Source of the DNA: Hexactinellida sp. DTS-2022
Lineage: Eukaryota; Porifera; Hexactinellida
Length of the DNA: 64,000 nucleotides
Direction: 5' to 3'
Assembly (NCBI GenBank): GCA_028753945.1
Contig: JAPNXP010000004.1
Location: 124,001-188,000, forward strand
Of this stretch, positions 1 to 61,699 are shown piece after piece. The number at the start of each line of letters is the position of its first letter. Position 1 is the stretch's first letter. A program made the translations under genes and the position numbers. A model generated the notes under the pieces. It had not been told where the DNA came from. It was given only the letters and a program-made list of their open reading frames with translations, and made no database searches.

Positions 1-50
1 TCCGGGAGTCCAGTGAGACGGTTGAACCTAGGATAACTCATAACTACAGT

Positions 51-263: not shown

Positions 264-2098
264 TTCAAACCGAGTCTCTTCAGTTTAGTCATATTTCCCA
301 GGCCGCTAGGTAGCATCATTAGCTCGTTGTGTTGTACGTCTAGAGCGGTCATGTTCCGACATTGTGAGATCTCTAATCAACAAACAAATAAATAAATAAA
401 CAAATATTTCAACAAACGAGGACAAACCTTCTGGCAGAATCTCGAGTTGGTTATGGGATATATCCAATGCATTTAAATGCAGCATCAGTCCTATAAAAAC
501 ACAAGAGATAATAATATTGTTATACAGTGTATAATTATCACATACCGATTTCAGGGGGGATAACCTTAATCTTGTTATCGCGTAGACTCAGTGTTGATAT
601 ATTCTAAGGAGAGATAGCAGTTAGTATCAAGGTACATAGGCCCTGTAACACACTCACCTTAAGATTCCCGATCTGACTCTTTATCTCTGTTATCTTGTTA
701 AACCGTAGGTACAGAGTTTGCAGCTTTGAGAGAGAATATATTTGGTCCGGAATCTAGTGTGGATAGAATAAGAACGCATTACAAATGAGTTATAACGTAA
801 CAAGCATTAAACCTCTCTCAGTTTGTTGTGTCTCAGGTCCAATACTTCTAATTTCGATAAGTTGCACACTTCGTCTATAATATACAACAAATAAACAACG
901 CAAGAATATCGTTAATACGAACACGGTTAATTAATAGGAATTTCGGGTTAATATGTACACTATTTCAGTCCCTTTTCAATACAAATAACACCAGTTAATA
1001 CAAATTCCGGATAAGGAGTATACATATCACGGCCCCTGGTGTACATACTAACGAGGCTCTACTGTACATAGCTATATCTACCCGGTAGGTAGGTGATCTG
1101 ATTTTCGCTGAGTCCCAGCGTCTTCAGGTTCCCGAGCTTCCCGATCTCGGGCCCCAGCGTCTGCAGTCTGTTTCCGTACATGTACAGCTGCTCCACGTGG
1201 CTACACTGAGACACGCAATAATAACCACACTAATAGGAGAGACAAGTATACTTACATCTTTAATGCTAGGAGGCATCCCTGGTAACTAGAGAAGCGAAAT
1301 GGAATTATAATCTAGGTATAATTGTTCCGGATAAACAACTAAATAACAGAGAACTTACGTCTTGTTTTGCTAAATCCAATCTTTTAGCTTTCTCTTCCTT
1401 CGCCTTTTGTATCTTTTTCTTAATTTCCTACAGAGTCAAAATAATAACAGTATATTCTTACTACAGCCATAAGATAGACACTAGCTTACTGGTGGTATGT
1501 CAAAGTTTATGTTATGTTTCCGTCTGATAGAGCCAGTGGCCTGCGGCTTCACTGAGTCAGGAGTCGATATTGTCACGTGCAGCTCCTGGCCCTTGGCGCC
1601 GCCTTTCCTCCCCCCCTCCAACTCCTGTCGGTCCGGTTCTGAAAACTGGACACCAGGTGGCTCTGAAAATTTCACACCAGGTGGCTCTGAAAATTTCACA
1701 CCTGATGGCTCTGAAAATTTCACACCTGATGGCTCTGAAAACTTCACGGCAGGTGGCTCTGAAAATTGGACACCCGATGGCTCAGTAAATTTCACACCCG
1801 ATGGCTCAGTAAATTGGACACCCGATGGCTCAGTGAATTTCACACCAGGTGGCTCAGTAAATTTCACACCAGGTGGCTCAGTAAATTTCACACCTGGTGG
1901 CTCAGTGAATTTCACACCTGACTGTCGCTGGTTGGAATCAAACTTTACTCCAGTTTGAATTCCGACAGTGATGTTAGCAACTTCGTTGTCGGCATCCATC
2001 AAGCTGTTTCTGTTGTCTTGAGCCCCGAGAGCGAAGCCCTCGACTGGGACAGATTCTTCGTCGGATGAGAGGGGAAGAGACGGCTCGTGAACAGCCAT
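264..2098 (-). CDS. SHOC2: SHOC2 leucine-rich repeat scaffold, partial, with expanded N-terminal RVxF array
   Basis: SHOC2 is the LRR scaffold of the SHOC2-MRAS-PP1C phosphatase that dephosphorylates RAF. The first exon (2098-1490, ATG at 2098) codes 203 residues. Small exons follow at about 1427-1359, 1285-1256, 1205-1080, 875-820, 770-655, 600-545, 490-430 and 372-264. They encode a basic helix (EIKKKIQKAKEEKAKRLDL) and then LRRs matching SHOC2 in order, such as LEVLDLRHNKL, LQTLYLRFNKIT and MTALDVQHNELMMLP. The last visible donor is in frame for the next LRR, so the gene runs off the left edge. Residues 50-156 hold 13 GVKF/GVQF motifs, 12 of them a perfect 8-residue tandem, where vertebrate SHOC2 has one GVAF PP1-docking motif. 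Several introns are under 100 bp. Identity is firm; internal exon edges are approximate. Confidence 0.88.
1631..1918 (-). repeat. Coding 24-bp minisatellite, 12 copies, in SHOC2 exon 1
   Basis: Twelve tandem 24-bp units code the octapeptide G-V-[K/Q]-F-[T/S]-E-P-[P/S]. A thirteenth, unspaced-out motif (GVKFDSN) lies just upstream at residues 50-53. Val and Phe are unchanged in all 13 copies. The middle residue is Lys in 10 and Gln in 3. One copy has Ala for Gly. The units differ at synonymous sites, so they are not all freshly copied. Confidence 0.95.
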
Positions 2099-3775
2099 CT
2101 AGCTGCTAGCTAATGCTTCCCAAAAGCAACGTTATCGAATGCTCGCATATTTCAAAGAATTAGTCAACTATAAACAGTTTCAGTCCTAGTGTATGGATTC
2201 TATTAGCTGCGAATCCAAATTATGGAAAACATTTTTTAAAGCATTATCTGTAATGGGAAGTTGGGAATAGTAATAGCAGTGCAAGAATAATAACTTATAA
2301 ATTCAATTTCCACACTAAAGTTCAGTATCCATTTTGTTAATCTATGTACTGAGCATACCACTAAAGATGATATCACATAGTTATACTACTATCAATATTA
2401 TAATATCAAATAACGATTGAGTTTACAAGTGTGTCACATAGTTATACTTCACCACATACTTATAAACTTTTGTACTGCTAAAATAGCTTCTTTCCTTTCA
2501 AATAACTCAAATAGGGATTTGAAGCCCTCCATCGATAGGTATATTAGAGTGGTTGCTTTTCGTAAACAAATTTATATTGCATAGTTGGTGTATTTACTGA
2601 GTATCTAAATTAGAGAATCCTTGGCGTTTTTATGACGCAATATATGAACAGCTGTGAGATATTACATTTCCTTTTTGTGTATTTATACAGCTACGGTATT
2701 TAGGTAGATTATAAATAACATACCTTGTTTGTTTGATAAGCTGAAGGTTTTTAGTAATTGGCAGACAAATAAGAAATATGATATACGTAGTTTGATCTAA
2801 TAATTAAGTTAAACTGTCGAAACTAATAAAAATATGATGTATTAACGTATTTATTGTGTTATATCGAGATAATAGTCATATTGCAGACATATAAATGAAT
2901 TAAATCTCATATGTTAGAAAGTACTGGGAGCATTCGCTTATTTTTCTCTTTTTCTAAACACTTATAATTCAACATGCACGTATTTTTCTCTTTTAAAAAC
3001 AAGTAGCATTAATAAATTATTATTTCTAAAACAATCTGAGATACAGCTGAACCCACGTTGGGATAGGTATTTTTAATCGTTTCATGCTGTAATTTGTCAA
3101 CAATTTACTGATTACTTAGTTGTTTATTTGTTTAGAAGTTAAATTTCTAGCAAAAGTGTCCTATGGAGTAAAATAAGACATTTCAGTTATAGTGAGTAGG
3201 AAGTATTTGCTGTAGATGCCATAATCTACAATGCAATCTTGCTACTAATCACATTGCATATTGTACACATCTTTCACTTTGTATCCTAAAATTCTAATTG
3301 AATTAGTTCCAGGGTAACCTCAGCAAAAGTAGCAGCATTTATAAGAGGATTATTCTATCCTTGTGATGTTTCTCTGACTTGCTTATTTGCTTATGTACAG
3401 ATGGCCGGCACTTCTATATTTTCATATACGTATTGCTCGAGTTTCTGCCCACATTTCCACAAGTCTTACAAGTCTCGCCACTTTATTAGATTCCAAATTC
3501 TGATTCTGCCTTTTGACTAAACTATAAGTTCTACTTGCAAAGGGAATTAGCTTTGTATCTCTGTTTGGTTTCCGAATACCATAGCCTTTGGGATTGAATA
3601 TGGTTTATATTCAGTGCTATTGACATTGCTATAATTATTTGCACAATATGCTCAAAGGTTTCTTGTCCGTACACATACTTATAACGAGCCATCAGGTAAA
3701 TCGCATTTGAACTTGAATCTAACTGATCTAGCATTTTATATTATTGTCACATCAACATATTACACGCAACACGAA
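2099..3775. other. Spacer between divergent SHOC2 and KIF13B
   Basis: About 1.7 kb of AT-rich sequence. I see no convincing coding frame, RNA gene or repeat family in it. The promoters of both flanking genes should lie here. The short open frame at 3531-3734 (minus) has no recognisable composition or partner exon. Confidence 0.6.
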
Positions 3776-6700
3776 ATGAGCAAAGGCGACGCAGTTATGG
3801 TAGCGGTTCGCGTGCGGCCTTTGAGTCGCCGGGAAATAGATATGAAAACAGAAATATGTATCGATATGAAAGGTAAACAAGTATTGTTGTTGGGAGCAAA
3901 CAAACAACAACAGAAGAATTACAGTTTCGATCACTGCTTCTGGTCCATTGACCCGGACAACCCAAAGTTCATAGACCAGGAGGCGGTGTTCAACGCGCTA
4001 GGAGAGAAGTTCCTCAAGAACTCATTCCAGGGCTATAACGGGTGTGTATTCGCCTACGGACAAACGGGTTCTGGCAAGTCCTACACCATGATGGGTCCCC
4101 CTTCTGGGGAGGAGCAGCGGGGGCTGATCCCCCGTCTCTGCGACGCTCTCTTCAACCGCATCGAGACGCAGGCCTCCGAGAGACCAGACATCGCGTCCAC
4201 TATAGAGGTAGTACCCACACAGCTATTATCAGTTCTTATGCTAATGGGATTATCCAGGAGCGCGAGACGCTCCTTTTGGAGCATGATTTTTGGAAAATTT
4301 GAATTTAGGGGCGCGAAAATTTGGAATTCTCTCCTATACCGTAACATTAATTTGTGATTTAGGCGTATGAAAATTGGATCATACCAGGATTAGGAGCGTA
4401 TTTACAAACAGCTGTATAATACCCTGGTTATCCTGTCTCTAGGTATCCTACATGGAGATATACAATGAGCGAGTCAGGGACCTGTTGATGCCGCGAGTTA
4501 GCCAGAAGGAGCTCAAGGTCCGGGAGCACCACTCACTGGGTCCGTACGTGGAGGGACTCACTAAGCTGGCTACCACCACCAGCGGGGAGATAGAGAGACT
4601 CATGCTAGAGGGGAACAGGTCCCGGACAGTAGCCGCTACACAGATGAACGCAGAGTCCTCTAGGTAGGGTAATACTGTACTGTCTGTTCTAATACAGTGG
4701 ATACCGGTTATACGAACATCGTCGTGAACTGTTATATTGTTCTTATAATCGGCATAAATTATATAGGGTATAAGGCAACCATTTTCCAGTAGAATATTAT
4801 TATATCCGGCATCTACTGTAGTGCATTGGTGGGCAACAGCGACCTTATGGAAATAACTTTGTACAGTATAGTATGAATACGTTAGGGAACTATTAACTGC
4901 TGTATCTATAGATCGCATGCAGTGTTCACGATAGAGTTTCGACAGACGGAGTTCGACGCAGTGCGCGGTCTGGGGACGGAGAAGGTGTCCCGAATATCTC
5001 TGGTTGATTTGGCCGGCTCAGAGCGGGCCTCCAAAACAGGCACCACGGGGGACAGGCTTAAGGAAGGCTCCAATATCAACTTAGCGCTCACAACACTCGG
5101 TGAGTATTAGTATACATACACAAATTTCCAACACAAATTTAAAAATTTCTGACACAAATTTCTTATCCAAATGAGCGTCGTATAATTGAAATTCACTCTA
5201 TAATCCCGAATTTTCCTTAACTGTCCCAACGAGTGTCGGATTAGGAGGCTATACTGTACCATGGATTGGTTTATTCTTGTGTGCAGGGAGAGTAATATCT
5301 GCTCTGGCTGACATATCCTCCGGCAAGAAAGGACAGGACTTTGTACCGTACCGAGACTCGGTGCTAACCTGGCTGCTGAAGGACAGTTTGGGCGGAAACA
5401 GCAAGACGATAATGATAGCTACGATCAGTCCCTCTAAGGACAACTTCGAAGAGAGTCTATCCACACTAAGGTAAGTCTGTGAGCACAGTCGTGATAAAAG
5501 TGTGTTAAATGTGACGGTTAATACGAATTTCCGGATAAGACGAACAAACAGTTCCACAAAATCTGGTCCCTACAATGGCTATTGAATGGTATTACTCCGG
5601 ATAAAGCGAACAAATTTTTACCATCCGTTGGTGTTCGTATTAACGAGATTTACTGACTTGCAGGTATGCAGACCGAGCCAAGCGCATTGTTAACCACGCG
5701 GTTATTAACGAGGATGACAACTCGCGGATAATTCGCGAGTTGAAGGAGGAGCTCCTGCGGCTAAAGGAGATGCTCGGGACCGGAGGCGGGCCCGGGGCCC
5801 GGGATGTCCCGGCGGGGGACGACGAGCTCGCGGAGAAACTGAAGGACGCACAGAACATGCTAGCGCAGCGCGAACAGAGCTGGGGAGAAAAGCTGGACAA
5901 CACGCGGCGCCTCGAGGAGGAGCGACAGAAGGTTATGGAGGAGATGGGCATATCTATACAGTCAGCCGGTATCCAAGTCAAGAGCGGTTAGTTACACACT
6001 CATTCAACCCTGTTGTTAATATGTGTAAATGCAGTTAACTCTCGTTATTACGAAGTGCTTGGGATCTGTAAATACCTTCGTTATATCCGGATATTCGTTA
6101 TAAGCGGATATTCGTTAACTTATAAGCGGATAATAATACATGCATTTAGTGCTCTGGGGGAAATCTCCATTTCGTTATATCCGACTTGGTTATCCACTGT
6201 ATTTTTTGTAGTATTTTTTTGTAGAACCAAAATGATGTTTTTTGTAGAATTTCCGCATTGTATCTGCATAATTCGCGAACCTTTACAAGTATCTTCTGTA
6301 CTAATAATTATTATTTATTCAGGCCACTTCTATCTTGTGAACATGAACGCTGATCCCAGCATGAACGAGCTCCTGGTGTATAACGTCAAAGAAACGACTC
6401 TAGTTGGTCGGCCCGACAACATTCCTCCCCCAGACATACAGCTTAAGGGTCTCAGCATTCAGAAGCAGCACTGCAAGATTGAGATTATCGGCGTGGAGTG
6501 TATAATAACTCCGGTCGAAGGCGCTGTGTACGTTAATGGGAAGGAGATAACTGAATCCACACGGCTGTACCACGGATACCGTATTCTCCTCGGGGGCAAC
6601 CACTGGTTCCGAGTTAACGCCCCCGGCGGACACGCCAACCCCCCAGAAGGCGACTCCCAAACGGACATAGACATAAGCTCTGCTAAGAAGGAGCTCGCTA

Positions 6701-15532: not shown

Positions 15533-15955
15533 CTTTACGAGCTCCTATAGAGACTCCTAAATAGTTATAATGCATTACCCCTTTGTCAGCTGATGTGAAA
15601 TTCCATATACTAATTGAAAACATTATAAGAGTAACAGGGTAAATTCCAAACTACCAGTTTTGATACCAGTTGCCTTGTTTGTAGAGATCCATGTATATTG
15701 TATAACGCATAAATAAATATATTTCTTATAATAATGAACGTTGCATTGACCGGTAAATATAACTATTGTTGTGAAGCAAGAGAAGCTCCTTTCTAGCTAA
15801 TACAGTTATTATAGCTATTCCTATAAACCCATAACGCTGTTGATTCATTCAACTAACTTATACCTAAATTTCCCAAACTGTGTACTTACACCGATTTCGT
15901 CAAACTTGAACTTACTGATTTATTCCTACCGATTTCTTCTGTCCACTGGTCCAGA
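15533..15955. other. Spacer before FMR1
   Basis: AT-rich spacer with no recognised feature beyond likely polyadenylation signals near 15709. Confidence 0.45.
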
Positions 15956-18223
15956 ATGGCAGTGTTGTACGATCAGGAAACGCTCCCTACTACTGTGCCA
16001 GATCAAACTGTTGAGTTATCTTCACTGATGGAGGTCGAATTTCTCCGAGGATCCGCTTGGTATAAAGCATTTCTCGTCGACTACGAAACTGATAGTCAGC
16101 AAGCAGTCATCACATTCGGGGGCAACTTGAATCGCGATCAGCAAGTCCCCCTGAAGTTCCTCCGCTACCCCCCCACCCCTTCCAGCAGCCCGGTGAGCCT
16201 TCAGGAGAAAGGACCCGTGGAAGCCTTGGCCCCCGCGGCAGAGGGAGAGCCAGAGGGCTGGTGGAAAGGGAAAATCGCCAAAATGAAAGGCGAATTCTAC
16301 GTTGTCGAGTTTGACAGTCAGGGCGCGTTATTCACGGATATATTCGAGGGTTCGAAAGTTCGCACCCCAAACTCTAACCAACCTTTCTCGGAGACAAACT
16401 TCTCCATATACCGCACCGCTATCGAGGTTCCTTTGGACCTACATTCCTTCTGCTCCAAAGACGTGCATAGTTCCTTCAGTCGCTCGATCGGCGCTCTGAG
16501 TGTGAGCTACCGACGCGACCAGAACCTGCTCGTGTTCCTTGCTAGGTCCCAGGCCGTCAGTCAGCGTGCCAACCTCCTCTCAGACATGCACATGCGGAAC
16601 CTGCGCACCAAGATGAACCTAGAGCAGCGGGCGAGCGAGGTCGGCGACCGCACCAACCCTTCCTCTGGCCCCGCCCCCTCCTATATGGGCGTCTCGCGCG
16701 AAACCACTTTCCGCGTGGAGCCCGAGCTCCTGGGACTAGCTATCGGACGACAGGGGACGAATGTCACCAACGCCAGGTGTCTGGGGGGAATCCTCCGAAT
16801 CGACCTCGACGAGGACACCTGCACCTTCCACATAATCGGAGAGACCGACGATGTCATTGAGGAGGCCAGGAAGCGATTGGAGTTCATAGACCTGACCATT
16901 GATGTCCCGCGAAAGAGCATCGGTCGCTTGATTGGGAAGAAAGGCAGTCTAATTCAAGAGATAGTCGACAAGAGCGGAGTCGTGAAAGTTAAGATCGAAG
17001 GAGACGACACGACCCAGCCCCGCAATCAGCTGTCCCCCGACGACAAGGTTCCCTTCCACTTCATCGGTCGCAAGGAGAACGTAGAGACCGCACAGATCAT
17101 GATGGACTACCAAATGGCGCACATCCGCGATCTCGACAAGTTCATATCAGAGCACGACGATATGCCCACCCCCCTCATAAACAGCCGCCCCGCCCCCAGA
17201 GGTCCCAACCAGCGGGACGAGGACCACGGGGGGTACAGAGGCGGGTACGGCGGGTACCGAGGGGGGGACAGAGAGGACAGGTACTATAGGGGGGGCCAGC
17301 AGCGCGATCGCGAGCCCCGTGAGCCCCGTGAGCAGAGAGAGCCTCGTGAACAGAGAGGAGAGCCCAGAGAACCCAGAGAACAGAGAGGAGAACCCCGAGA
17401 ACCAAGGGAGCCTCGTGAAAACAGAGAGACCCGCGATCAGAAGGATGCCCACCCTCGCACCGACGAGAAGCGGGACGAGGAGCATTCGTCTGGCGTGCGT
17501 GTGCAGGTACAGGACAGGCCTGTTAACCGCAGGAACGATAACAGGACCGGCGGACGTCCGTACCAGAATTACCGGGATTCGGGGGGCCAGCGGGGGGAGC
17601 GACGCAGACCGCCGGGCCGGCCCAACGACTTCGGATTCGAAGGCGGGTATGAGAACGACAGGCGCCGGCCGTTCCGCGAAAACCGAGGCGATTATCCCGA
17701 GCGCCGCGACAGAGGGGACAGACCTGAGAGAGGAGAGCGGGGAGAGTACGTGCGAGACCGAGGTGATTATAACCGCGATAACGATGATAGAAGGGAGCGC
17801 GGTGAAAGGGGAGAGAGAGGTGAGAGAGGGCCCCGGCGCGGGGGTCGGGGGGGCAGACGCGAGGGCGGACAGCGGAGATTCAGCGGGAACCGCGGGACGA
17901 GACCGAAGCAGGACGAAGATACGGCAGAGACTGCGGACCCCGAGACGAGCCCCGCGGCGGAGACAAACGAGGATGGGAGCTGGCCCGCCACTGAGCACAC
18001 GGACGAAACCGCAGAGCCGGCTACTGAGCCAACTGGCGATTCCGTGGAGAACGGAGATGACCCTGATAGCAAGAACGATTGGGCCTTAGACACTGATCAG
18101 CTGAGCGGTGACGATGCCAATGCTGACCCGAATCCGCTGAAAATAGTCCCTCAGTCCGAACTCGTGAATGGCACTGAACAACTCACTCTGGACAATACCG
18201 AAGATGTGCCCGAGCCTAATTAG
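15956..18223 (+). CDS. FMR1: FMR1/FXR-family RNA-binding protein, intronless
   Basis: RNA-binding translational regulator of the FMRP/FXR family, 755 residues from a single exon. N-terminal tandem Tudor/Agenet modules (VEFLRGSAWYKAFLVDY; GWWKGKIAKMKGEFYVVEF) are followed by two KH domains. KH1 begins near residue 250 (LLGLAIGRQGTNV and DLDEDTCTFHI). KH2 begins near residue 314 (IGRLIGKKGSLIQEIVDKSGVV), closely matching the family. The conserved VPFHFIGRKENVETAQIMMDY helix follows. The C-terminal half is disordered: Arg/Glu/Pro repeats (REPREQ units), RG/RGG-rich stretches (GERGERGERGPRRGGRGG) and an acidic tail. Vertebrate FMR1/FXR genes have many introns, so the single exon is unusual. The Tudor linker is expanded by Pro/Ser/Glu-rich sequence. 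One family gene here probably stands for all three vertebrate paralogues. Confidence 0.95.
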   Translation: MAVLYDQETLPTTVPDQTVELSSLMEVEFLRGSAWYKAFLVDYETDSQQAVITFGGNLNRDQQVPLKFLRYPPTPSSSPVSLQEKGPVEALAPAAEGEPEGWWKGKIAKMKGEFYVVEFDSQGALFTDIFEGSKVRTPNSNQPFSETNFSIYRTAIEVPLDLHSFCSKDVHSSFSRSIGALSVSYRRDQNLLVFLARSQAVSQRANLLSDMHMRNLRTKMNLEQRASEVGDRTNPSSGPAPSYMGVSRETTFRVEPELLGLAIGRQGTNVTNARCLGGILRIDLDEDTCTFHIIGETDDVIEEARKRLEFIDLTIDVPRKSIGRLIGKKGSLIQEIVDKSGVVKVKIEGDDTTQPRNQLSPDDKVPFHFIGRKENVETAQIMMDYQMAHIRDLDKFISEHDDMPTPLINSRPAPRGPNQRDEDHGGYRGGYGGYRGGDREDRYYRGGQQRDREPREPREQREPREQRGEPREPREQRGEPREPREPRENRETRDQKDAHPRTDEKRDEEHSSGVRVQVQDRPVNRRNDNRTGGRPYQNYRDSGGQRGERRRPPGRPNDFGFEGGYENDRRRPFRENRGDYPERRDRGDRPERGERGEYVRDRGDYNRDNDDRRERGERGERGERGPRRGGRGGRREGGQRRFSGNRGTRPKQDEDTAETADPETSPAAETNEDGSWPATEHTDETAEPATEPTGDSVENGDDPDSKNDWALDTDQLSGDDANADPNPLKIVPQSELVNGTEQLTLDNTEDVPEPN
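17298..17430 (+). repeat. Coding Arg-Glu-Pro repeat in FMR1
   Basis: Imperfect units of REP/REQ/RGE (such as GAGCCCAGAGAACCCAGAGAA) code a highly charged, strictly repeating run just downstream of the KH2 region and before the RGG-rich tail. Confidence 0.85.
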
Positions 18224-36500: not shown

Positions 36501-39500
36501 GAAAACCCCGGTTTAGACTGTATGAATATAGTTTAATTCCCTATGTTACTCTATCCACGGTCCCTTAACCCTTACTCCCAGGTGCGGGCCTGGTTATGAA
36601 GGCTATAATAGAGGAGGCGGAGGAGGAGGTCTCCAAGCGCATGCAGCTGCTGGCCCTGGCAGAGGGGGCGCTATGCAAACACCTGCACACCGCTCTGTTC
36701 ACATACAGCACCGACAACAGGATGCTAATGCACAGACAGCTGAGCAGACACCTGGTGGCGCTGTGGGTGCAGAATAACGAGGTGGCCATGGAGCTGCTGA
36801 GAAATATCCTGCCCGTGGGAATGCTGGACTTCTTGCAATCGGAAGAGAAAGTACTAGATAGTAGATACAGCCATAGGGGTTTTAAGGCATTTGTAGTATG
36901 AAATTAGACTCAATTCGTAGTTTTTAAGCTTTTGGTTTATACCTAAATTTGGCCCACAGTACAATACGATCTAGCACAAATTATTACTACTTTATAAATT
37001 AGACTGAATTTTGCGGGTCTCTTATGGCTTAAAACACTACTCTAATTTTGGCAATGGTTGTTGGCCACACCATTACATTCAAATATTCTAGCATTACACT
37101 CTTATATAATCCTTAGAAACACTATCCATAATATATTAACCTACAGTAGAATCTCGTTATTACCAACACGGTTAATACGAACACTATTTAAAGCCTTTTC
37201 AATCCAAATTATATTGGCTAATACAAATTCTGGATAAAGCGAACACATTTGACGGCTCGTACTAACGAAGTTCTACTGTATATCTATCCTGTGGTGTGTG
37301 TGTAGGTCCCTGTCCGTGAGGAGGACCGGATGCACATAAGAGACAACGTGCACGCTATCCAGACGCTCAGCAAGCGGAGACTAACTTCCATAGAGGGCAC
37401 CCTCCTACACTGGAGAAACAGACTCAAGTCCAAACCCGGAGATTCGCAGAGACCCGTCACGCTACGGAGGCGGAGACAGGTGCTTAAGTCAGAACTCAAT
37501 TGGGAGTTCTTCTACTACCAATTCATGGAGGATCACACGCAAGCCAGCCTAATCTGGAACCACAAAACGAGAGAGGAATTAAAGGACTGTTTAGAGAACG
37601 AACTGAGAGCATTTACAATAGACAAGGATTTGGTCGGGGGCAACGAAGTTACGAGTTGGAATTTCATAGAGTTTGAAGTTAGATACGAATGTCTTTCTGA
37701 CGAAATTAAGATTGGAGATTATTATCTACGCTTGCTACTGGACGAAGGAACCACCACGGCGAAAATACACAATCCGTTGAACTTCTTTAACGACATTTAT
37801 CACAGATTTCTGTTAACACAGAAGCCTACTATGCGTAGCATGTGTCTGCATGCAATGGGTATAGTGTATGACAAGTATTACGAGGATGTAGGCACATTCA
37901 ACGACGTGAAATTTCTAGTTAGAATCCTGGAACATACGAAAGATAAACTCGAGAGAGACAGATTGTTGCTCTTCTTTAACAAACTGTTTATGCTCAAGAG
38001 GAATGTGAAAGAATTCGTAGATGGAGGTTTGTGATATTTCAACAAACTACAGTAGTAGTGTACCCAGAAAGATAGTTAAACTTGCAGTGTATTATACAGC
38101 CATTTGCAAATACGCTCCTAATCCTAGTATGATCCAATTTCCATGCACCTAAATCACAAATTAATCTTAGGGTATAGGAGAAGATTCCAAATTTTCTCGC
38201 TGCTAATTTAAATTTTCCAAAAAACATACTCCAAAAGGAGCGTCTCGCGCTCCTGGATAATTCGTTGAGTTAAAGTTATTTAAGGTTTCTGAAATGTAAT
38301 TTTATCTAAAACTTCCACTTGAAAGTTTACGCCACTGATAATTGTATAAATCAGAGTTTGAGTGTGTTAAATTCCGCACTGTTTAGGTGGTTTGAAGGTG
38401 TTGATAGACCTCGTAACCCTCGCGCACCTCCACACAAGCAGGGCGCAGACTCCAATGCAGTCTAACCTGCTAGAGGCGCCCGCTGGACTTGAATACGACA
38501 TAGAGAAGGAGTGGTACTACGGGAACAAGGACAAGGAGAGGTTAGGACCGTTCTCGTACAAGGAGATAAAGGAGTTCTGGAAGGAACAAGACATTAACGA
38601 GACCACTCGCTGCTGGGCACAGGGCCTAGACGGGTGGAAACCTCTGAGAGATATAGCGCAGCTAAAGTGGTGCTTATTCGCGACCGGAAATGCACTCTTG
38701 AATGAGACAGAGTTAGCAGATCTTATCCTGAGTAAGTCCCATCGCCTTATAGGGTCTTATTACAGATCAAACGTTAAATAACGCAAATTTTCCGCAAATT
38801 AGATTAGACACTCCCTCGCTTTGTCACGCGTTTTGGCCATTTTGTAGTACAAAAAATTTATCATATTAACATATATAAAAGTGCTCGCATGATAAAAATG
38901 TTGAAACCCTTGCCTTATAAGGTAGTAAAACTTAACTCGCATCTCTCTAGACCTACTGATTCGCATAACGGAGTACTACCCCAGCAGAGACGTAGACAAT
39001 GCCATTATCCGACCGCTCCCAAAGTGCAAGCGTGTTCTCAGTGACCCGAGCGTCCTGCCTCACATTGTACAGCTCCTGGTGACCTTTGACCCGGGGTTAG
39101 TAGACAAGACTATTCGCCTTCTGAATATGGTCATGGAGGATAATCCACAACTCCCGAGGGTGTTTATGACCGGCGCTTTCTTCTTCATAATGATGTACAC
39201 CGGATCCAATATTCTGCCGATAGGTCGCTTCTTGAAGTACACACACATGCGGCAGAGCTTCCGGCCCGAGGAGGTGACACAAAGCGCGAGTGACATAATG
39301 CTACAATCCGTGCTGGGACAGCTGTTACCAGAGGCAATGGTCTGCTATCTGGAGAACCATGGCCCTGAGAAGTTTGCTGAGACTTTTCTAGGCGACTTCG
39401 ATACGCCTGAGGCGATATGGAGTCACGAAATGCGACGGCTTTTGATTGAGAGGATAGCAGCACACATCGGAGACTTCACTCCTCGCCTGCACTCCAACAC

Positions 39501-42500
39501 ACGCTCTCTATACCAATACTGCTCTATACCTATAATACAATATCCACAGCTGGAGAATGAGCTATTCTGCAACATATACTATCTCCGACATCTCTGTAAT
39601 CTGGACAAGTTCCCTGACTGGCCCATCAAGGAGCCGATTAAGCTGCTAAAGAATGTTCTAGAAGAGTGGAAGCGAGAAGTGGATAAGAAGCCGCCTAACA
39701 TTACATGGGAAGAAGCTTACAAGATCCTAAATCTCCCAACAAACAAGGGTCAGCAAGACCAAGCAGTTATTCGCAAAGCCTACTTCAAAATGGCACAAAA
39801 ATATCACCCGGATAAGAACCCTAACGGTAGACAGGTATTCGATCAAGTCAACAAGTCATACGAGTTCCTATGCTCTGTGCACGTTAATTCCACCATAGGG
39901 CCTGATCCAGTCAGGATTGTGTTGCTCCTACAGACACAATCAATCCTATTCAAGAGATACTCCGAGATTCTACAGCCGTATAAATACGCCGGTTATCCGA
40001 TGTTAATAAAAACTATTTCTTTTGAGAACGATGACTCCAGTTTGTTCGTTAAATCTACTCCTTTGCTACCAGCGGCCGCTGAGCTGTGTTTCCACACAAT
40101 TAACACTTCAGCTCTCAATGTGGAGGAACTGAGACGAGAAAATGGCCTCGAGCATTTACAGAATTCATTCGACAGGTGTCTGGATATTATCAGTTTCGGT
40201 ACAATTGATACTGACACGCCTGCGGTTATTCTAGGTCACGTGCTCAAGTGCTATTCAGTCGCGGTCTGCTTTGAAGGTTGCCGCGAGAAAATATACGAAA
40301 TGCCCGGGGTTATTCGCGGCATTTGTCGCACTCTCTACTTTAGGAATACTTCACAGATGTGCATGATAACAGCTGACTGTATCTGCGCTTTCGCGCAAGA
40401 CGCACAGCTACAAACTTGTCTCTTAGAAAACGGGGTTCTATGGCACTTGCTACTATTCCTATTCAAGTACGACTACACTCTCGACGAGAGCGGAGTTGCG
40501 GCAAAATCCGAGACAAACGTGCAGGAGATTAACAATGAGTTGGCTAGGAAATGCGTGCACGCGCTTCGTAGATTAGGCGGTAAACAACCGATTGATGAAA
40601 CCGCGGTTAAAACACCTGACAACCAGAATGTAAATACCTGTCTCATAGGGATGTTAACCTACTACCTGTCCAGACAAATGGGGAAACTGAGCATTCGTGA
40701 GTTCTTAAAGCTATTCTCTGGCAACACAGAATCTCCGTATCTCATTTGGGACAACAGAACTCGAGCTGAGCTCAGCCAATACTTAGAGACTCAACAGGAA
40801 ATTCAAATTAAGACCAGCGAAGGCGAGCCACATTTAGGCGCCACTTTTACATTCAGCGTGCTAATGGACGAATTGGTTGTTGGGAACACTTATGTCCGTG
40901 TTTATAACGAGCAGCCTACGTTCGTATTGGAGGACCCGTCAGATTTCGCAGCGAATCTAATCGAATTCTTGAGTGAACAAGCGCAGTACCTCCAGTCCCG
41001 ACTTATGATGGGCGAACATCAGCAAAACTTATTAGACGGCTACAGCGATCAAAACCGAATAAAACAATGCGAAATGTCCTTGCAGGCCTTAGAGAATGTT
41101 ATCAAGAATAACCCAGGCACTGAGATACAATGCATCGGACATTTCACTCTACTATTCTCTCTCCTATCGATACAAGACGCATGCAGACTGAATGAGCTCG
41201 CTATTAACGTTATTCTAAGTGTGACCGGTTCTAAGAAATGTGTCAACAACATAGCAGACGCGAATACACTACATTTCCTTCTAATGGTGCTCCCATCTCT
41301 CCCGAACTCCCACTGTCTCATTCTTGAGATCCTAATGGCCCTTTCTTCTCACACAGCTATCATTAAGGAGATGATACAAAAGGGAGGTTTAGTATACCTA
41401 CTCGATTTATTCTGTAACGCAAATTCCGGCGAAGTCCGTGAGGCAACAGCCGCACTGTTTTGTAAAATGATTGCAGACAAACTCGCAGGCCCTAAGGTCC
41501 GTATTATAATTATAAAGTTCCTACCGTTGATATTCCTCGACGCTATGCGAGACAACCCCGAGGCCGCAGTGCACATGTTCGAGAATATTCACGAGAATCC
41601 AGAGCTCATCTGGAACGACGAGGCTAGAAACAAGGTGTCTAACACAGTAGCGGAAATGGCAGTCAAAGTAAACGCGACACAGCGAGAAGATCCGTTGTCT
41701 GTATGGAGATTGCCTGAGGACTTTACTGTAGCCTATTCTGAGATAGAAGGAGAGGTGGAGGTGGGGGGTGTGTACCTGCGTTTGTACATCAGTCAGCCAT
41801 CCTGGGTATTGCGACGTCCTAAAGAGTTTCTAATCGCGATTCTTGACAAGTTCTGTCTCCTCTGTGACATGCTAAGTCCGGACGGACAGGTTCTGGAGAT
41901 GGTGACAACAACCGTGATATGCTTCTTGATTCACCACACCGCGCTCGCTGATCAGATCCCTCCTCTGGGCCACATTCCGCGGATTTTCACACTCATGACT
42001 CCTAAGAATCCTACCATAAACAAGTCCTGCGTAGATGTGCTGCTTCCCATGGCTGATTCAGAAGTTTGTGTTCGTACAATCGCGAAATGTAAGAGCTTAG
42101 ACCCGCTAATAACCGCGATGAAGACGCGGAATGATATAATCCTGCCTGCCAACGAGGTGATCAGTAAGCTGTTAGACCGAAATATCCCAGAATTGGTATC
42201 ACAAGCCTTGGAAGTAGGAATGGTACACTACTTACTAGCGCTACTAGAAAACTCATTGGATAACGTAGACAACGTAAGTGCAGTGAAAGCGCAGATAGTA
42301 AAAGTGTTGAAAGCCATGTCTCAGGATTTGGCTTACGGGGCCCGTGTTAACGAGATCCTAGATAGCTCCTCTATATGGAGTATTTACAAAGAACAGAAAC
42401 ACGATTTATTCCTCACAGACACAAGAGTAGCCGGGTATCTCACAGGGCCTGGGATAGCGGGATATTTAACGGCTCCAACTGTTAACAATAAAACTATGAG

Positions 42501-42552
42501 CTCAGCACCACCTCCACTCGTGCCACCAGATGACCACGAACATCATGATTAA
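33586..42552 (+). CDS. DNAJC13: RME-8/DNAJC13 endosomal J-domain protein
   Basis: Large endosomal co-chaperone that works with Hsc70 and the retromer/SNX machinery in sorting and clathrin dynamics. Eight in-phase exons (33586-34684, 34974-35243, 35564-35761, 36066-36239, 36582-36850, 37306-38026, 38387-38731, 38951-42552) give 2225 residues, close to the human length. The PH-like N-terminus ([20 protein letters not shown]) binds PI3P in the family. IWN motif repeats occur ([41 protein letters not shown]). A GYF-like segment ([21 protein letters not shown]) precedes the J domain near residue 1275, with HPD in [10 protein letters not shown]. The C-terminus ends in the typical [15 protein letters not shown]. 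The final exon is 3.6 kb while the introns lie in the 5' half. Confidence 0.97.
34715..34936. mobile_element. MITE-like element, family C, filling DNAJC13 intron 1
   Basis: Tandem TTATAACGAAGTCGGATATA blocks at the left and CACTTCGTTATAACGAGAAT then TCGCTGTA at the right. It occupies most of the 289-bp intron. Confidence 0.7.
35373..35460. mobile_element. Partial family G element in DNAJC13 intron 2
   Basis: ACAGTGGATGCCGGTTATAA to GGCATAAATTATATAGGGTA, collinear with 4695-4828. Confidence 0.65.
35820..35973. mobile_element. Degenerate family B element in DNAJC13 intron 3
   Basis: CCGATATTCGTATTAACCGG and ATGTTCGTACTAACGATG mark it; the left end is eroded. Confidence 0.55.
36255..36360. mobile_element. 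Repeat family K in DNAJC13 intron 4
   Basis: AGCAGAACCTGGTTATAACT, GGTTAGTACGTAGTATTTTA and AACCAAGTTTATAAAGCAGT match the element at 50205-50384. Confidence 0.65.
36358..36522. mobile_element. MITE-like element in DNAJC13 intron 4
   Basis: Left end CAGTCGAAACCGGTTTTTTA and right end AACCCCGGTTTAGACTGTA are inverted repeats. The middle is rich in TTAGAATAAAC-type repeats. It abuts the family K element. Confidence 0.7.
37142..37280. mobile_element. MITE, family B, in DNAJC13 intron 5
   Basis: Starts CAGTAGAATCTCGTTATTAC and ends GTACTAACGAAGTTCTACTG. Confidence 0.75.
38085..38275. mobile_element. Dispersed repeat, family D, in DNAJC13 intron 6
   Basis: CGCTCCTAATCCTAGTATGA to AAAGGAGCGTCTCGCGCTCC; same orientation as 21963-22146, opposite to 4240-4436. 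Confidence 0.75.
38803..38862. mobile_element. Short family F remnant in DNAJC13 intron 7
   Basis: CTTTGTCACGCGTTTTGGCC then ATTTTGTAGTACAAAAAAT. Confidence 0.5.
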
Positions 42553-54999: not shown

Positions 55000-56618
55000 T
55001 TATTGTTGCACGAATGCGGTTACTTTCTTAGCAGCACTGGCCATGTCATCAGCACTGGCGAGATTCAAGTCAGATTCTTCTAGAATCTTCTTTGCTTCGT
55101 CTCCATTATTTCCCTCTAGTCTCGCGACTATTGGCACCTTCAGATCTAAGTTCTTGCAAGCTGTTACAATTCCATTCGCGATTATGCGGCAATCAACTAT
55201 TCCACCGAATATATTCACTAAAATAGCTTTCACCTAGAAAGTAATTTATTAATAATCGTAATAGTTAGGTGGCCGTTCAAACGTTACGTAACGCTTCCAG
55301 GAGGGGAGGGGGTCAAATAATGTGTGACAAACCATCTTTTTTTTATTACAAAATGGTCAAAAAGCGTGTTAATTTCCTGTAATTTTGCATTACGTGAAGA
55401 GGACAAAGATTTATGCAATAAGTGCGCTAACTATTTAGTTAGTATTACAGTGGATACTATTTAGTTAGTATTACAGTGGATACTATTTAGTTAGTATTAC
55501 AGTGGATACTATTTAGTTAGTATTACAGTGGATACTATTTAGTTAGTATTACAGTGGATACTATTTCGTTATTACTATAGCTGTATAACCTGTGGATCCT
55601 GTGTTATTATCTGGAATGCAGATTGCACCTGACTCTCCCTCACTCCCCCTCCTACGTCAAGGAAGTTAGCCGGCTCTCCGTTATACAGTTTTATAATATC
55701 CATGGTTGCCATAGCCAATCCAGCACCGTTTACAAGACATCCGATATTCCCTTTCATTCCCACATAACTCAGGTCTGCTTCCTGGGCAGCTAATTCTCTC
55801 GGGTCGGTCTCATTGTTGTCTTGCATCGCGAATATTCCCCCCTGACGGAATTTCGCGTTATCATCGAAATTAATTTTCGCGTCGAAACAAACTACCTCCC
55901 CATCCATAGTTAACCCGAGTGGGTTTATTTCAATCTGAGTTGCATCGACAGATATAAACAGACGGTATAACTGTCTCACTTGTTTCGCGGTTGTTATAAT
56001 CGTCTCATCTTTAAAACCGAGACATTTCGCGATCTCAGTAGAAGTCCCTTCATTTAGCCCCAAATTAATATCAACTGGGTACTTGAATATTCTCTCCGGC
56101 ATATTCGCGGCTACTTCTTCAATATCAACGCCTCCGTCCGTGCTAGCGACTATAACAGGACCGCCGGCATTTCTATCAAGTAGAATAGCTAAATAGACCT
56201 CTTTCTGTATGTTAAGCGCACGCGCTACCATCAGTTTATTCACAAGCACGCCTTCTGAAGTTGTCTGTTTAGTTATTAGTCTGTTTCCAAGCATTTTATG
56301 GGACATCGTCTCAACTTCTTGTAAGCTCTTTACAAGTTTAATCCCGCCTTTAAGGCCAGTGTCAAACGTGCCCTTGCCACGCCCCCCGGCTAGAATCTGC
56401 GCTTTTATAACAAACTCACTCACGTTAAGACTTCTCGCGGCTTCCACCGCCTCTCTCGGTGTTCGCGCTATTTTGAATGGCTGTGTGTTAATGCCGAATG
56501 CCTGCATAAGCTGTTTGCTCTGATACTCATGCAGGCTAAGGTGCCGTCTCTGGATTAGTGCAATTCTCGTGAATAGCATAGTTACATGTGTGGCGCGTAG
56601 GAACTTCAACAAACTCAT
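55000..56618 (-). CDS. SUCLG2: Succinate-CoA ligase beta subunit, GDP-forming type
   Basis: Mitochondrial TCA-cycle enzyme subunit that couples succinyl-CoA hydrolysis to nucleotide triphosphate formation with the alpha subunit. Two exons (56618-55590, 55233-55000) join in phase to give 420 residues. An Arg-rich mitochondrial presequence ([23 protein letters not shown]) precedes [16 protein letters not shown]-grasp motifs follow ([67 protein letters not shown]). [15 protein letters not shown] and [12 protein letters not shown] are closer to the SUCLG2 form than to SUCLA2. The ORF can also start eight codons upstream at 56642. The intron holds a perfect 26-bp tandem repeat and a family F element. 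Confidence 0.93.
55271..55385. mobile_element. Repeat family F in SUCLG2 intron
   Basis: GGCCGTTCAAACGTTACGTA, CAAATAATGTGTGACAAACC, TATTACAAAATGGTCAAAAA. Best copy of the family. Confidence 0.75.
55430..55559. repeat. Perfect 26-bp tandem repeat, five copies, in SUCLG2 intron
   Basis: Five identical units of 26 bp (ACTATTTAGTTAGTATTACA plus GTGGAT) end to end, then a partial unit. On the gene's strand each unit contains TACTAAC. Identity across units points to recent expansion. Unspaced, so not CRISPR. Confidence 0.95.
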
Positions 56619-58175: not shown

Positions 58176-59078
58176 TTATTTCCTCCATTTCAAGAAGTAA
58201 TCTTTCACGAGAGAGAATTGCCCCTTATCAATGAACGAGAATGAGATTATGTTAAAGTGCAGCTGATCGATTGAGTTGAAGAACGAAGGCTGCTGCACTT
58301 CTTGTAGCTCAGATGTCTTACGTTTGCCAGCCGGTTCCCTGGATCTACACTCGACCCACACAATCTTATCTTCCTTCTTTTCCAGAGTGTCATACGCCAG
58401 TTTCTGCAGGTGATCATGTAGTCCCACGAGTGTGTTGGTGTCCTCGGGTGCCTGGTGGTGTATAATGGCTCCCTCGCCCCAGTTATGCTCTAACTCAAGG
58501 GTGGCAGGGGCCATTAGCACCACTGACCCTCTCATCTTGCTTATAGTAGCCCCAGAGTCTTCTTTCGGTACAAGCTTAGAGGAGAATCCCAGTTCGAATA
58601 GCTTCTTAACTTCAGACCAGCTGACTGGAGTAACAGCTGTTTTAGACTCACGTAGAACCACGATTATTTTCTCGGTCGGATTTTTAGACAGGAATGCCTC
58701 AATATCCATCAAAACTTCGCCAAGCAGCACACATGGCTCTCCGTAGAATAGCCAAGTGTCATTTTCGTGCGAGGCCACCTGAAGGTCTAAAAGCCGCACG
58801 CCGAAGCGCAGCTGATCGCTAATGGGTTTATCCTGGCATTGGAATTTCCCCTTAAAAGCTGCTGAATCGTGACTTCCCAACATTACAATTTCGTTGAGTC
58901 TCACTTGACTGGTTAGTGCCCCCATCCAATTCCATGCCAGTACGGTGCCCTTAGCAAATACAGTGCTGGATGAAATTGGCTTAGTTAGATGGGACGCTAT
59001 GTAGTCCTGTTCTATAAGAGAATCCTCTGACTCCATTGGGTTCATGTGTGATTCTTTATTTCCGTTATCTGTAGCCAT
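58176..59078 (-). CDS. PI-PLC X-domain-like protein, paralogue 1
   Basis: 300 residues, one exon. The fold marks of the PI-PLC X domain are present: NWMGALTSQVRLNEIVMLGSHDSAAF, then QLRFGVRLLDLQV and a long core with strand KIIVVLRES. The catalytic set of bacterial PI-PLC is His-Asp (HD), Arg in DIRGR and His in a (Y/H)HG loop. Here GSHDS keeps His and Asp. The Arg site is Gln (LLDLQV) and the second His site is Tyr (LFYGE). It probably lacks normal phospholipase activity. Substrate and function are unknown. C-terminus FSFIDKGQFSLVKDYFLKWRK is shared with the partial paralogue at the right edge. N-terminal 40 residues are acidic and unique. Confidence 0.82.
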   Translation of the reverse strand: MATDNGNKESHMNPMESEDSLIEQDYIASHLTKPISSSTVFAKGTVLAWNWMGALTSQVRLNEIVMLGSHDSAAFKGKFQCQDKPISDQLRFGVRLLDLQVASHENDTWLFYGEPCVLLGEVLMDIEAFLSKNPTEKIIVVLRESKTAVTPVSWSEVKKLFELGFSSKLVPKEDSGATISKMRGSVVLMAPATLELEHNWGEGAIIHHQAPEDTNTLVGLHDHLQKLAYDTLEKKEDKIVWVECRSREPAGKRKTSELQEVQQPSFFNSIDQLHFNIISFSFIDKGQFSLVKDYFLKWRK

Positions 59079-59390
59079 TGAGCTAAGTTCGTGATAGTTC
59101 AGCGAATGCCCTATTTATTCGATATTTGTAATTGAATTAGAAGCCGGGAATACAGGAAAAATGCAACGTTGTACTATGAATTGATTATTTGATACTAAAT
59201 ATATAATAGTGGTTTTAAATAGCTTCATTAAATATGCTAGAATTTTGGTAAGGTTTGTCTCGTAAGGTATATGCACCCTGTTATAACTTAAGATTATACA
59301 CGTATTATACACAAGGTTAGAATAGTAAAATACACACCTGTAAAAACTAATAAACTAATAAACAAAATAATCCTGTAAATCATTGGGATC
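59079..59390. other. Spacer between PI-PLC-like genes
   Basis: AT-rich; nothing recognised besides flanking untranslated sequence. Confidence 0.4.
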
Positions 59391-60179
59391 TTACACATTC
59401 AATAATGGGAATTGAAGTTGTTTGAAATGAGTTTCATCAACGATGCTAAAAGTCAAAATATTCAATCCTTGAGCGCAAGTTAAGAAATAACCACAAGCTT
59501 CCTCCAACTCAGTTCTTTTTACGTCATTATCTCCTCGCAAACGCATCTCAACCCAAACAAGCTTATCATTACTTAGTCCCGCAGAAATGACAGCTCTTAG
59601 AAAGGAATTCAGTTTTGATTTCGTGTTGGCATCTGCAGGAGCCAGGTGTGTCTCGATTGAACTCGAACCCCAGTTTATCTCCATTTCCAGAGCCTCAGGG
59701 GCAAAGAGGATCATGGAGCCTCGCGCTTCTTTAAGCTCCATATTCAAGTTCTTCTTAGGGACAAACAGTGCTTTCATCGGTTCGGAGATTATTCCCTTAA
59801 CGCCGGCCCAGTCCACTTCTCCCACCTGCGAATTCTGTAAATAGACAATAACCGTCTCAGATTCGTGATTTCGTAAGAACATTTCGATTTCTTTTAAAAC
59901 ATCAAGAAAAGGAACGTGTCCCCCTTTGCGAAATACACAAACTTTTCCTTCATAGAAGATCAAATGCAGATCAAGAAATCTAACCCCATTCTTTAGCTGG
60001 TCAAGAATCGGAAGATTCTGGTGTTTATCGTCACATGAATCATGGCTTCCGAACACAACTAAACCTCTGAGAAGAATTCTATCTTCCAGATGCTTCATCC
60101 AACATTCAGAATGTTTACCAACGAAACCTTTCCGATCTTCGGGAAGTACATCAGCACACAATTCCCTCCCACTTGCCAT
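59391..60179 (-). CDS. PI-PLC X-domain-like protein, paralogue 2
   Basis: 262 residues, one exon. CWMKHLEDRILLRGLVVFGSHDSCDD keeps the first His and its Asp. GVRFLDLHL has His at the Arg position. VCVFRKGG has Arg at the second His position. The remainder (IEMFLRNHESETVIVYLQNS; MILFAPEALEMEINWG; WVEMRLRGDNDVKRTELEEA) is nearly the same as paralogue 3, and a tract of roughly 185 bp is identical in DNA. The N-terminal 45 residues differ. No signal peptide or membrane segment. Confidence 0.82.
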   Translation of the reverse strand: MASGRELCADVLPEDRKGFVGKHSECWMKHLEDRILLRGLVVFGSHDSCDDKHQNLPILDQLKNGVRFLDLHLIFYEGKVCVFRKGGHVPFLDVLKEIEMFLRNHESETVIVYLQNSQVGEVDWAGVKGIISEPMKALFVPKKNLNMELKEARGSMILFAPEALEMEINWGSSSIETHLAPADANTKSKLNSFLRAVISAGLSNDKLVWVEMRLRGDNDVKRTELEEACGYFLTCAQGLNILTFSIVDETHFKQLQFPLLNV

Positions 60180-60680
60180 TTATCCAAAGTTAAATAAATA
60201 ATACTTATTTCCCAAATTAAATATGAGTTATAAATATATGGACGCACTTTATGATTCCACTCTAGAATATGAGGATACTACAAGGCATTTATACTTAGAA
60301 ATCTAGACAGGGTAAGTGTCTTTATATTGAATATTCTGTAAAATCACATTCTCAATATAGTCTCCAGTATAGTCCTTAGATAAAATGGCAGAGAATTATG
60401 AAAAAAGTGTCAAAATTGACCAAAAAGTAAAACTGCATGCAAATCAAATAATTTCAATTGGATGAGCTATCTAAGAGATAATTTGACAATCAGAGATTAA
60501 CTATGTTTGGGACTCATAGCTCATGTGACCCAGGAACACATAAGGAGACATTAATACGAACACTATTCAGTCCTCTTCAGCCTTATAAAATACACACCTA
60601 AGCCTTATAAAATACACACCTAAAATACACACCTGTCCTAAGTAATAAACAGAAATAAATCCGAAAGACAAAATAAGATA
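60180..60680. other. Spacer holding a pseudogene fragment
   Basis: Contains the fragment described at 60385-60560 and, near 60590-60660, a direct repeat of CCTTATAAAATACACACCTA. Otherwise AT-rich. Confidence 0.5.
60385..60560 (+). pseudogene. Truncated PI-PLC-like pseudogene fragment
   Basis: DNA resembles the start of paralogue 4 (61700 onward): ATGGCAGA(G/A)AATTATG, then TTGGATGAGCTATCTAAGAG and TTTGGGACTCATAGCTCATG, with short deletions between. In-frame stops and frameshifts appear and the similarity ends soon after the first catalytic His. It is on the plus strand like paralogue 4, among minus-strand genes. Confidence 0.8.
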
Positions 60681-61475
60681 TTACACCTGCAACAATGGGA
60701 ATTGAAGATCTTTGAAATGGGTTTCATCAACGATGCTAAAAGTCAAAATATTCAATCCTTGAGCGAGAGGTATGAAATAATCACGAGCTTCCTCCAACTC
60801 AGTTCTTTTTACGTCATTATCTCCTCGCAAACGCATCTCAACCCAAACAAGCTTTTCATTGCTTAGTCCCACAGAAATGACGTCTTTTAGAAAGGAATTC
60901 AGTTTTGATTTCGTGTTGGCATCTGCAGGAGCCAGGTGTGTCTCGATTGAACTCGAACCCCAGTTTATCTCCATTTCCAGAGCCTCAGGGGCAAAGAGGA
61001 TCATGGAGCCTCGCGCTTCTTTAAGCTCCATATTCAAGTTCTTCTTAGGGACAAACAGTGCTTTCATCGGTTCGGTGATTATTCCCTTAACGCCGACCCA
61101 GTCCACTTCTCCCACCTGCGAATTCAGTAAATAGACAATAACCGTCTCAGTTTCGAAATTTTGTAAGAACATTTCGATTTCTTTTAAAACGTCAAGAAAA
61201 GGAATGTGTCCCCCTTTGCGAAATACAAAAACTTTTCCTTCGTATAAGATCAAATGCAGATCAAGAAACCTAACCCCATTCTTTAGCTGGTCAAGAATTG
61301 GCATCTCCTGGTAATTGTCGTCACATGAATTATGGCTTCCGAACACAACTAAATCCCTGAAAAGTTTATCATTTGGTAGACTTTTCATCCAAAATTTTGG
61401 TTTTTTACGTTCACGACCGGGGATTAATTCACCGGGATTTCTCCCATCAGTACACACTTTATTTCCACATGCCAT
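60681..61475 (-). CDS. PI-PLC X-domain-like protein, paralogue 3
   Basis: 264 residues, one exon. FWMKSLPNDKLFRDLVVFGSHNSCDD keeps the first His but has Asn for the partner Asp. GVRFLDLHL and VFVFRKGG again lack the catalytic Arg and second His. It is the sister of paralogue 2 with near-identity from about residue 70 onward. It diverges from paralogue 4 over about 225 bp, which must hold both promoters. Confidence 0.82.
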   Translation of the reverse strand: MACGNKVCTDGRNPGELIPGRERKKPKFWMKSLPNDKLFRDLVVFGSHNSCDDNYQEMPILDQLKNGVRFLDLHLILYEGKVFVFRKGGHIPFLDVLKEIEMFLQNFETETVIVYLLNSQVGEVDWVGVKGIITEPMKALFVPKKNLNMELKEARGSMILFAPEALEMEINWGSSSIETHLAPADANTKSKLNSFLKDVISVGLSNEKLVWVEMRLRGDNDVKRTELEEARDYFIPLAQGLNILTFSIVDETHFKDLQFPLLQV

Positions 61476-61699
61476 TTATCCAACCGTTAATTAATTAAGA
61501 ATTGAAAAAATCGATTTCCAAATTAATTACGAGTTAAATATAAGATAAATTTAGGATCTAGAAAAACTTTATTTATTTATACTCAATTCACAATCTACTA
61601 GAGTAACAAGATACTAAACATGTATAAATTCCTAGTTTGTGCAATAATATCATTATTCAACATAACCAGCTACTTGCCTACTAATTGCATATAGTAAGA

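Follow-up and report, generated by a model that had tools for sequence, protein, structure and literature searches.

A tandem array of predicted GVAF-type PP1-docking motifs in the SHOC2 tail of a hexactinellid sponge

Human SHOC2 docks PP1C through a short motif in its N-terminal tail. What does it mean, then, that a gene of Hexactinellida sp. DTS-2022 encodes a tail with 13 motifs resembling this one, and how many PP1C molecules could they serve? The gene begins near the start of the window, by which we mean the whole stretch of 64,000 nucleotides analysed here (C13:124001-188000; the genome comprises 18 contigs and 112.4 Mb). A preliminary description of this DNA named the gene SHOC2 and proposed that the motifs are selected for PP1 binding.

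The human side of that description agrees with published work. Residues VAF 64-66 of human SHOC2 account for density in the SLiM site of PP1C, whereas residues 1-85 are otherwise disordered; without the tail, complex formation is ~40-fold weaker (PMC9452301). The human RVxF motif and twelve flanking residues form a beta-hairpin on PP1CA (PMC12905138). A third study used SHOC2 residues 80-582, and the full-length protein has extra affinity when PP1C is present (PMC9452295).

The assignment of the sponge gene to SHOC2, with no broken exons, is secure at the level of reading frame and alignment, as the preliminary description had it. Downstream of exon 1 lie short LRR exons separated by GT-AG introns (Table 1). 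In all, 19 exons splice in frame to give 685 residues, collinear with human SHOC2, and a candidate exon 20 lies outside the window. Exon 19 ends in ...MPPQAVEGGPSTIMQ and the candidate last exon reads YLRFHGPYRHMNFK up to a stop codon, which together presumably resemble the end of human SHOC2. A 171-residue LRR piece matches human SHOC2 (7txh_B) with 275.7 bits, and in the full-length chains the match is collinear over 125-292. The best non-SHOC2 chain for this piece is a bacterial LRR protein with 236.4 bits, so the SHOC2 score alone is not exclusive; agreement with human SHOC2 extends, however, to the repeat order and to the stretch preceding LRR1. A genome search with the LRR piece gives 77 matches, of which 7 fall on the gene's own exons (53-97% identical). 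The remaining 70 are 22-47% identical, as expected of generic LRR proteins, and therefore no second SHOC2 is seen among the best candidates, which were the ones scored.

Table 1. Features of the SHOC2 gene and its N-terminal tail (feature, position in the window, strand, remark)
SHOC2 exon 1	1490..2098	minus	ATG start, whole 203-residue N-terminal tail
Lone GVKF	1940..1951	minus	tail residues 50-53, then DSNQ
12-unit array, [GA]V[KQ]F[TS]EP[PSD]	1631..1918	minus	tail residues 61-156
Linker, array to LRR part	1490..1630	minus	tail residues 157-203
HVTI, V-x-I site between array and LRR	1568..1579	minus	
NINF, 14th [VI]xF, near LRR	1502..1513	minus	
SHOC2 exon 2 (EIKKK...KQD)	1359..1427	minus	aligns with region before human LRR1
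SHOC2 exon 3	1256..1285	minus	
SHOC2 exon 4 (LRR)	1082..1205	minus	
SHOC2 exon 5 (LRR)	813..874	minus	
SHOC2 exon 6 (LRR)	658..753	minus	
SHOC2 exon 7 (LRR)	546..603	minus	
SHOC2 exon 8 (LRR)	428..490	minus	
SHOC2 exon 9 (LRR)	264..372	minus	
SHOC2 exon 10, first part	1..27	minus	gene continues beyond window, C13 below 124001

On the plus strand, at 3775-6000 and on, a kinesin-like gene (recognised by eye) stands head-to-head with SHOC2, ~1.7 kb from its start codon. Elsewhere in the window, long open frames belong to an FMRP-like gene (15857-18223; KH0 domain, 70.6 bits) and an RME-8/DnaJ-like gene (38929-42552). Four neighbouring open frames at 58176-62515 look like paralogous PI-PLC-X proteins; the one tested, 59391-60179, matches PF00388 with 25.3 bits.

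Exon 1 is open from its ATG, with an in-frame TAG directly upstream and a GT donor at its 3' end. Its translation bears out the array of 13 motifs that had been placed at 1631..1951. Twelve of them form a tandem array whose unit is exactly 24 nt or 8 residues long, and Tandem Repeats Finder reports the interval 1650-1918 with a period of 24, 11.2 copies and 88% matches. Units 1-6 read GVKFTEPP (three times), GVKFTEPS, GVQFTEPS and GVKFTEPS; units 7-12 read GVQFSEPP, AVKFSEPS, GVKFSEPS, GVKFSEPP (twice) and GVQFSEPD. The core given as GV(K/Q)F for all 13 is found in 12 of them, unit 8 (1727-1750) being AVKF, and the T/S-E-P that was said to follow it is present in the 12 tandem units but gives way to D-S-N-Q after the lone motif. 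As described, V and F are constant throughout (13/13), with G replaced by A once. The E and P of the unit are just as invariant (12/12 units). The tail contains 14 matches to [VI]xF, compared with a mean of 1.7 and a maximum of 7 in 20,000 residue shuffles; since the motifs are tandem copies, this test demonstrates the existence of the array only. The 13 motifs lie 67-166 residues from RLDL.

The RVxF consensus is [K/R]x(0-1)[V/I]x[F/W] (PMC6406801). The [V/I]-x-[F/W] anchors are present in all 13 motifs. The basic residue is present in none of them and is missing from human GVAF as well, and for this reason we call the motifs SHOC2-type VxF and not canonical RVxF. The context [PS]-G-V-x-F-[ST], as in human P-G-V-A-F-S, is found in 11 of the 13, and the pattern [PS]G[VI]xF[ST] gives the same count (human letters in the alignment, QPGVAFSVDNTIK). 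By sequence, the tail carries GVAF-type motifs, which we predict to dock PP1.

Phmmer pairs human GVAFSVDNTIK not with the array but with HVTISTPDSVK, 42 residues before RLDL compared with 38 in human, where the Phe of human GVAF 63-66 is replaced by Ile. Local alignment of this linker segment is no better than chance, as 26% of shuffles are equally good (0.26). Over the whole tail, local alignment favours the first array unit together with its preceding residues (shuffle fraction, 0.012-0.022). There are two possible histories: decay of the old motif to V-x-I with the array taking its place, or growth of the array out of that motif.

The array may instead have another job, as a spacer or in binding another partner through V-x-F-[TS]-E-P, with HVTI or NINF left to dock PP1C. 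We regard this as improbable. The position of HVTI in the phmmer pairing and the invariance of E and P fit such a job, and searches with the array or the tail name no PP1 partner: the array finds three hits in the PDB (E 0.0019-0.096) with a repetitive or proline-rich look, and the tail finds Cornifin in Pfam with 30.8 bits, under the cut-off of 34.8. However, HVTI is missing the Phe anchor and does not align significantly, and it would have to be a coincidence that the unit matches PGVxF[ST] at the corresponding place in the protein.

Adjacent motifs, being 8 residues apart, can be separated by at most about 29 Å, and PP1C is wider than 29 Å. The human contact comprises the motif and twelve flanking residues (PMC12905138) and would thus make neighbouring units overlap. 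With a span smaller than PP1C and a contact longer than eight residues, neighbours should compete, which favours a redundant tether for one PP1C. The suggestion that several PP1C could be held on the array is accordingly not supported, as we infer from the limit that the 8-residue spacing sets. For such a hub, which would bind several PP1C at once and concentrate the phosphatase at RAS-RAF sites, speak the 13 motifs over about 100 residues, in which motifs two or three units apart can be separated by up to 58-86 Å, and the loose precedent of the ASPPs, which bind more than one PP1 per molecule; their multimerisation, however, needs ankyrin repeats and not a motif array (PMC12543280). Weighed against the crowding of neighbouring units, we consider a hub very improbable. 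Just as little weight goes to an extension of the same idea, by which a single PP1 tether became a selected multivalent array, tunable by copy number, whose length sets the threshold of RAF activation with several PP1C per scaffold.

Our preferred reading, held tentatively and at slightly less than even confidence, is that the array is a protein-coding minisatellite of SHOC2-type VxF motifs that acts as a redundant tether for one PP1C. As in the human complex, a holophosphatase directed at RAF would be assembled from the LRR crescent, RAS-GTP and PP1C, and the RVxF pocket of that PP1C would accept any of the 13 motifs. As the motifs are mutually exclusive on one PP1C, the array would act statistically, raising the local concentration of docking motifs and permitting quick rebinding. 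It would thereby offset the distance from the LRR part, the weakness of motifs that lack the basic residue and perhaps the decay of the human-position site to V-x-I. With tethering scaled by chain length as L^-1.5 and equal intrinsic affinity assumed, tethering by all 13 motifs is stronger by a factor of 6.65 than by the nearest array motif on its own, and by a factor of 2.84 than by a single motif placed at the human distance; a 13-fold gain would not be expected. Slippage or unequal exchange would alter the copy number, while the unit itself would stay under mild purifying selection.

The usual phosphorylation site in RVxF motifs is the x residue, which is Lys or Gln in the array motifs. That phosphorylation of the residue after F blocks docking, as had been suggested, is speculation. 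When Aurora B phosphorylates RVxF motifs, binding is lost (PMC6406801).

If the units matter as protein, they should carry a mark of constraint, and the comparison of synonymous with non-synonymous change that had been recommended gives one. Across the 12 units in the coding frame, pS is 0.47 and pN is 0.107 (pN/pS 0.23). The ratio is 0.69, 1.1, 14 and 34 in four of the five other frames, and 0.34 in the antisense frame, which shares third positions. Third positions vary at 8 of 8 sites and the other positions at 5 of 16 (p 0.0018); p rises to 0.028 without unit 12 and to 0.13 without units 8 and 12. Counted as minimal steps, 9.5 changes are synonymous and 7.5 non-synonymous (taken as 10/17, p 0.005-0.013), or 7 of 11 are synonymous without unit 12 (p 0.011-0.022). 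Because the units differ mainly at synonymous sites, constraint at the protein level is likely, though modest and resting in part on the divergent units 8 and 12. The constraint does not single out the V and F anchors: E and P are held equally, and the invariance of V and F alone has a chance probability of 0.04-0.07. The proposal that the motifs are selected for PP1 binding and not made by slippage is not supported in that form, although coding constraint survives.

The differences between units bear the mark of copying. All three Gln units have linked codons, GTC with CA(A/G), and GTG is found in each of the nine Lys units; F is followed by Thr in units 1-6 and by Ser in units 7-12; and the pairs 2/3 and 10/11 are identical. 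Most simply, each of these differences (the Gln codons, the Thr/Ser blocks) is one event spread by copying, which speaks against the earlier view of the Lys/Gln position as free to vary. Part of the array may be neutral repeat expansion.

Such expansion is ordinary in this genome. In 17 random 10-kb segments (170 kb), searched for arrays whose period is divisible by three and which reach at least three copies and 90 bp, we find 20, spread over 10 of the 17 segments, and 11 of them are open in at least one frame. Slippage-made arrays being common, the SHOC2 array stands out by its content and its place. A search of the genome with the array itself gives three further weak hits (E 1.1e-4 to 1.9e-4), and the one that was read (L002) is an unrelated-looking minisatellite. 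One segment, C9:1000001-1010000, contains five separate arrays with a 24-bp period and four copies each, perhaps one dispersed element. Within the window, a 26-bp unit is repeated 5.5 times at 55430-55571 with 99% identity, next to an open frame that looks by eye like a succinyl-CoA ligase subunit.

The main rival to the redundant tether is a near-neutral minisatellite, in which a slippage-prone 24-nt stretch multiplied in a disordered tail because the frame stayed open, and no more than one or two copies would contribute to PP1 binding. The survey, the traces of recent copying and the weakness of the constraint once units 8 and 12 are dropped all agree with it. It does not account for the low pN/pS and the excess of synonymous steps, which persists without unit 12, and under it the presence in the unit of the very motif by which this protein family docks PP1 would be due to chance. 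We consider it unlikely, though clearly less so than the other alternatives. The redundant tether is itself weakened by the same loss of significance in the third-position test, by the equal invariance of E and P, by the lack of the consensus basic residue in all 13 motifs, by the commonness of arrays with such periods, and by the phmmer placement of the human motif at HVTI, though the other local alignment prefers the array.

The same genome encodes candidate partners: by homology, a PP1C whose RVxF pocket is intact, a RAF-like kinase and members of the RAS family. The PP1C gene on C8 has an open frame across its exons and scores 595 bits against PP1-beta; L266, which we take to be a further residue of the RVxF pocket, is present. 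So are all nine pocket residues named in PMC6377682. For a PP1C-like gene on C6, two exons match, and the stretches inspected did not yield a last exon. Two pieces of the RAF-like kinase at C15:512854-513869 share 58% and 68% identity with human BRAF. RAS-family matches include one on C4 (52% over MRAS residues 11-192) and one on C15 that is split between exons (71% over 12-59 and 50% over 87-189). The RAF RBD profile PF02196 finds no match, but the controls are likewise without one, so that this does not speak for absence of the domain.

The RAF-like kinase is preceded by RSKSISN and followed by RRVSESN, both resembling 14-3-3 sites and both with Ser at +2. The upstream one presumably resembles the CR2 14-3-3 site; human RAF 14-3-3 sites, as we take it, have Pro at +2 instead. 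The BRAF kinase query gives 145 matches in total, including kinase-like clusters at C10:1378854-1415813 and C16:5493071-5512052, many of them single long open frames.

A scan of viral contigs with the array gave seven pattern matches, none of them a relative, and a scan of genome contigs with the 685-residue protein gave 13 pattern matches, again with no relative; its two loci are both Saprospira LRR proteins (30%). In the literature on several or tandem RVxF motifs, the listings match only through two RVxF motifs, and in the wider literature no RVxF array appears in the title or the start of the abstract among the matches listed. Within the searches made on SHOC2 and RVxF, no description of a SHOC2 motif array came up, and the matches listed for SHOC2 and sponge concern regulatory RNAs by title or abstract.

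If the motifs bind, the sponge gene is a natural experiment on the number of PP1-docking motifs that a holophosphatase can use, and a short motif in a RAS-RAF regulator would be tunable by repeat number. The redundant tether then makes a measurable prediction, about 7-fold from redundancy, with near-identical modules that can be removed singly. If the motifs do not bind, the locus is a warning against taking motif arrays in minisatellites as function.

To our knowledge, PP1 partners with two RVxF motifs, such as Plasmodium Rpt3, are not known as tandem arrays. Rpt3 shares with the sponge tail the presence of more than one motif per protein, but has two (PMC12691818). The ASPP proteins likewise regulate PP1, carry an RVxF-type motif (RVKF in ASPP2) and are reported to bind several PP1; in contrast to the array, they have one RVxF motif and an ankyrin-dependent multimerisation, and they are unrelated to SHOC2 (PMC12543280, PMC6377682). 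Human SHOC2 has in common with the sponge protein the disorder of the tail, the P-G-V-x-F-[ST] context and the lack of a basic residue before V (PMC9452301, PMC12905138), and differs in having a single motif, where the sponge tail has 13 and, near the human position, HVTI.
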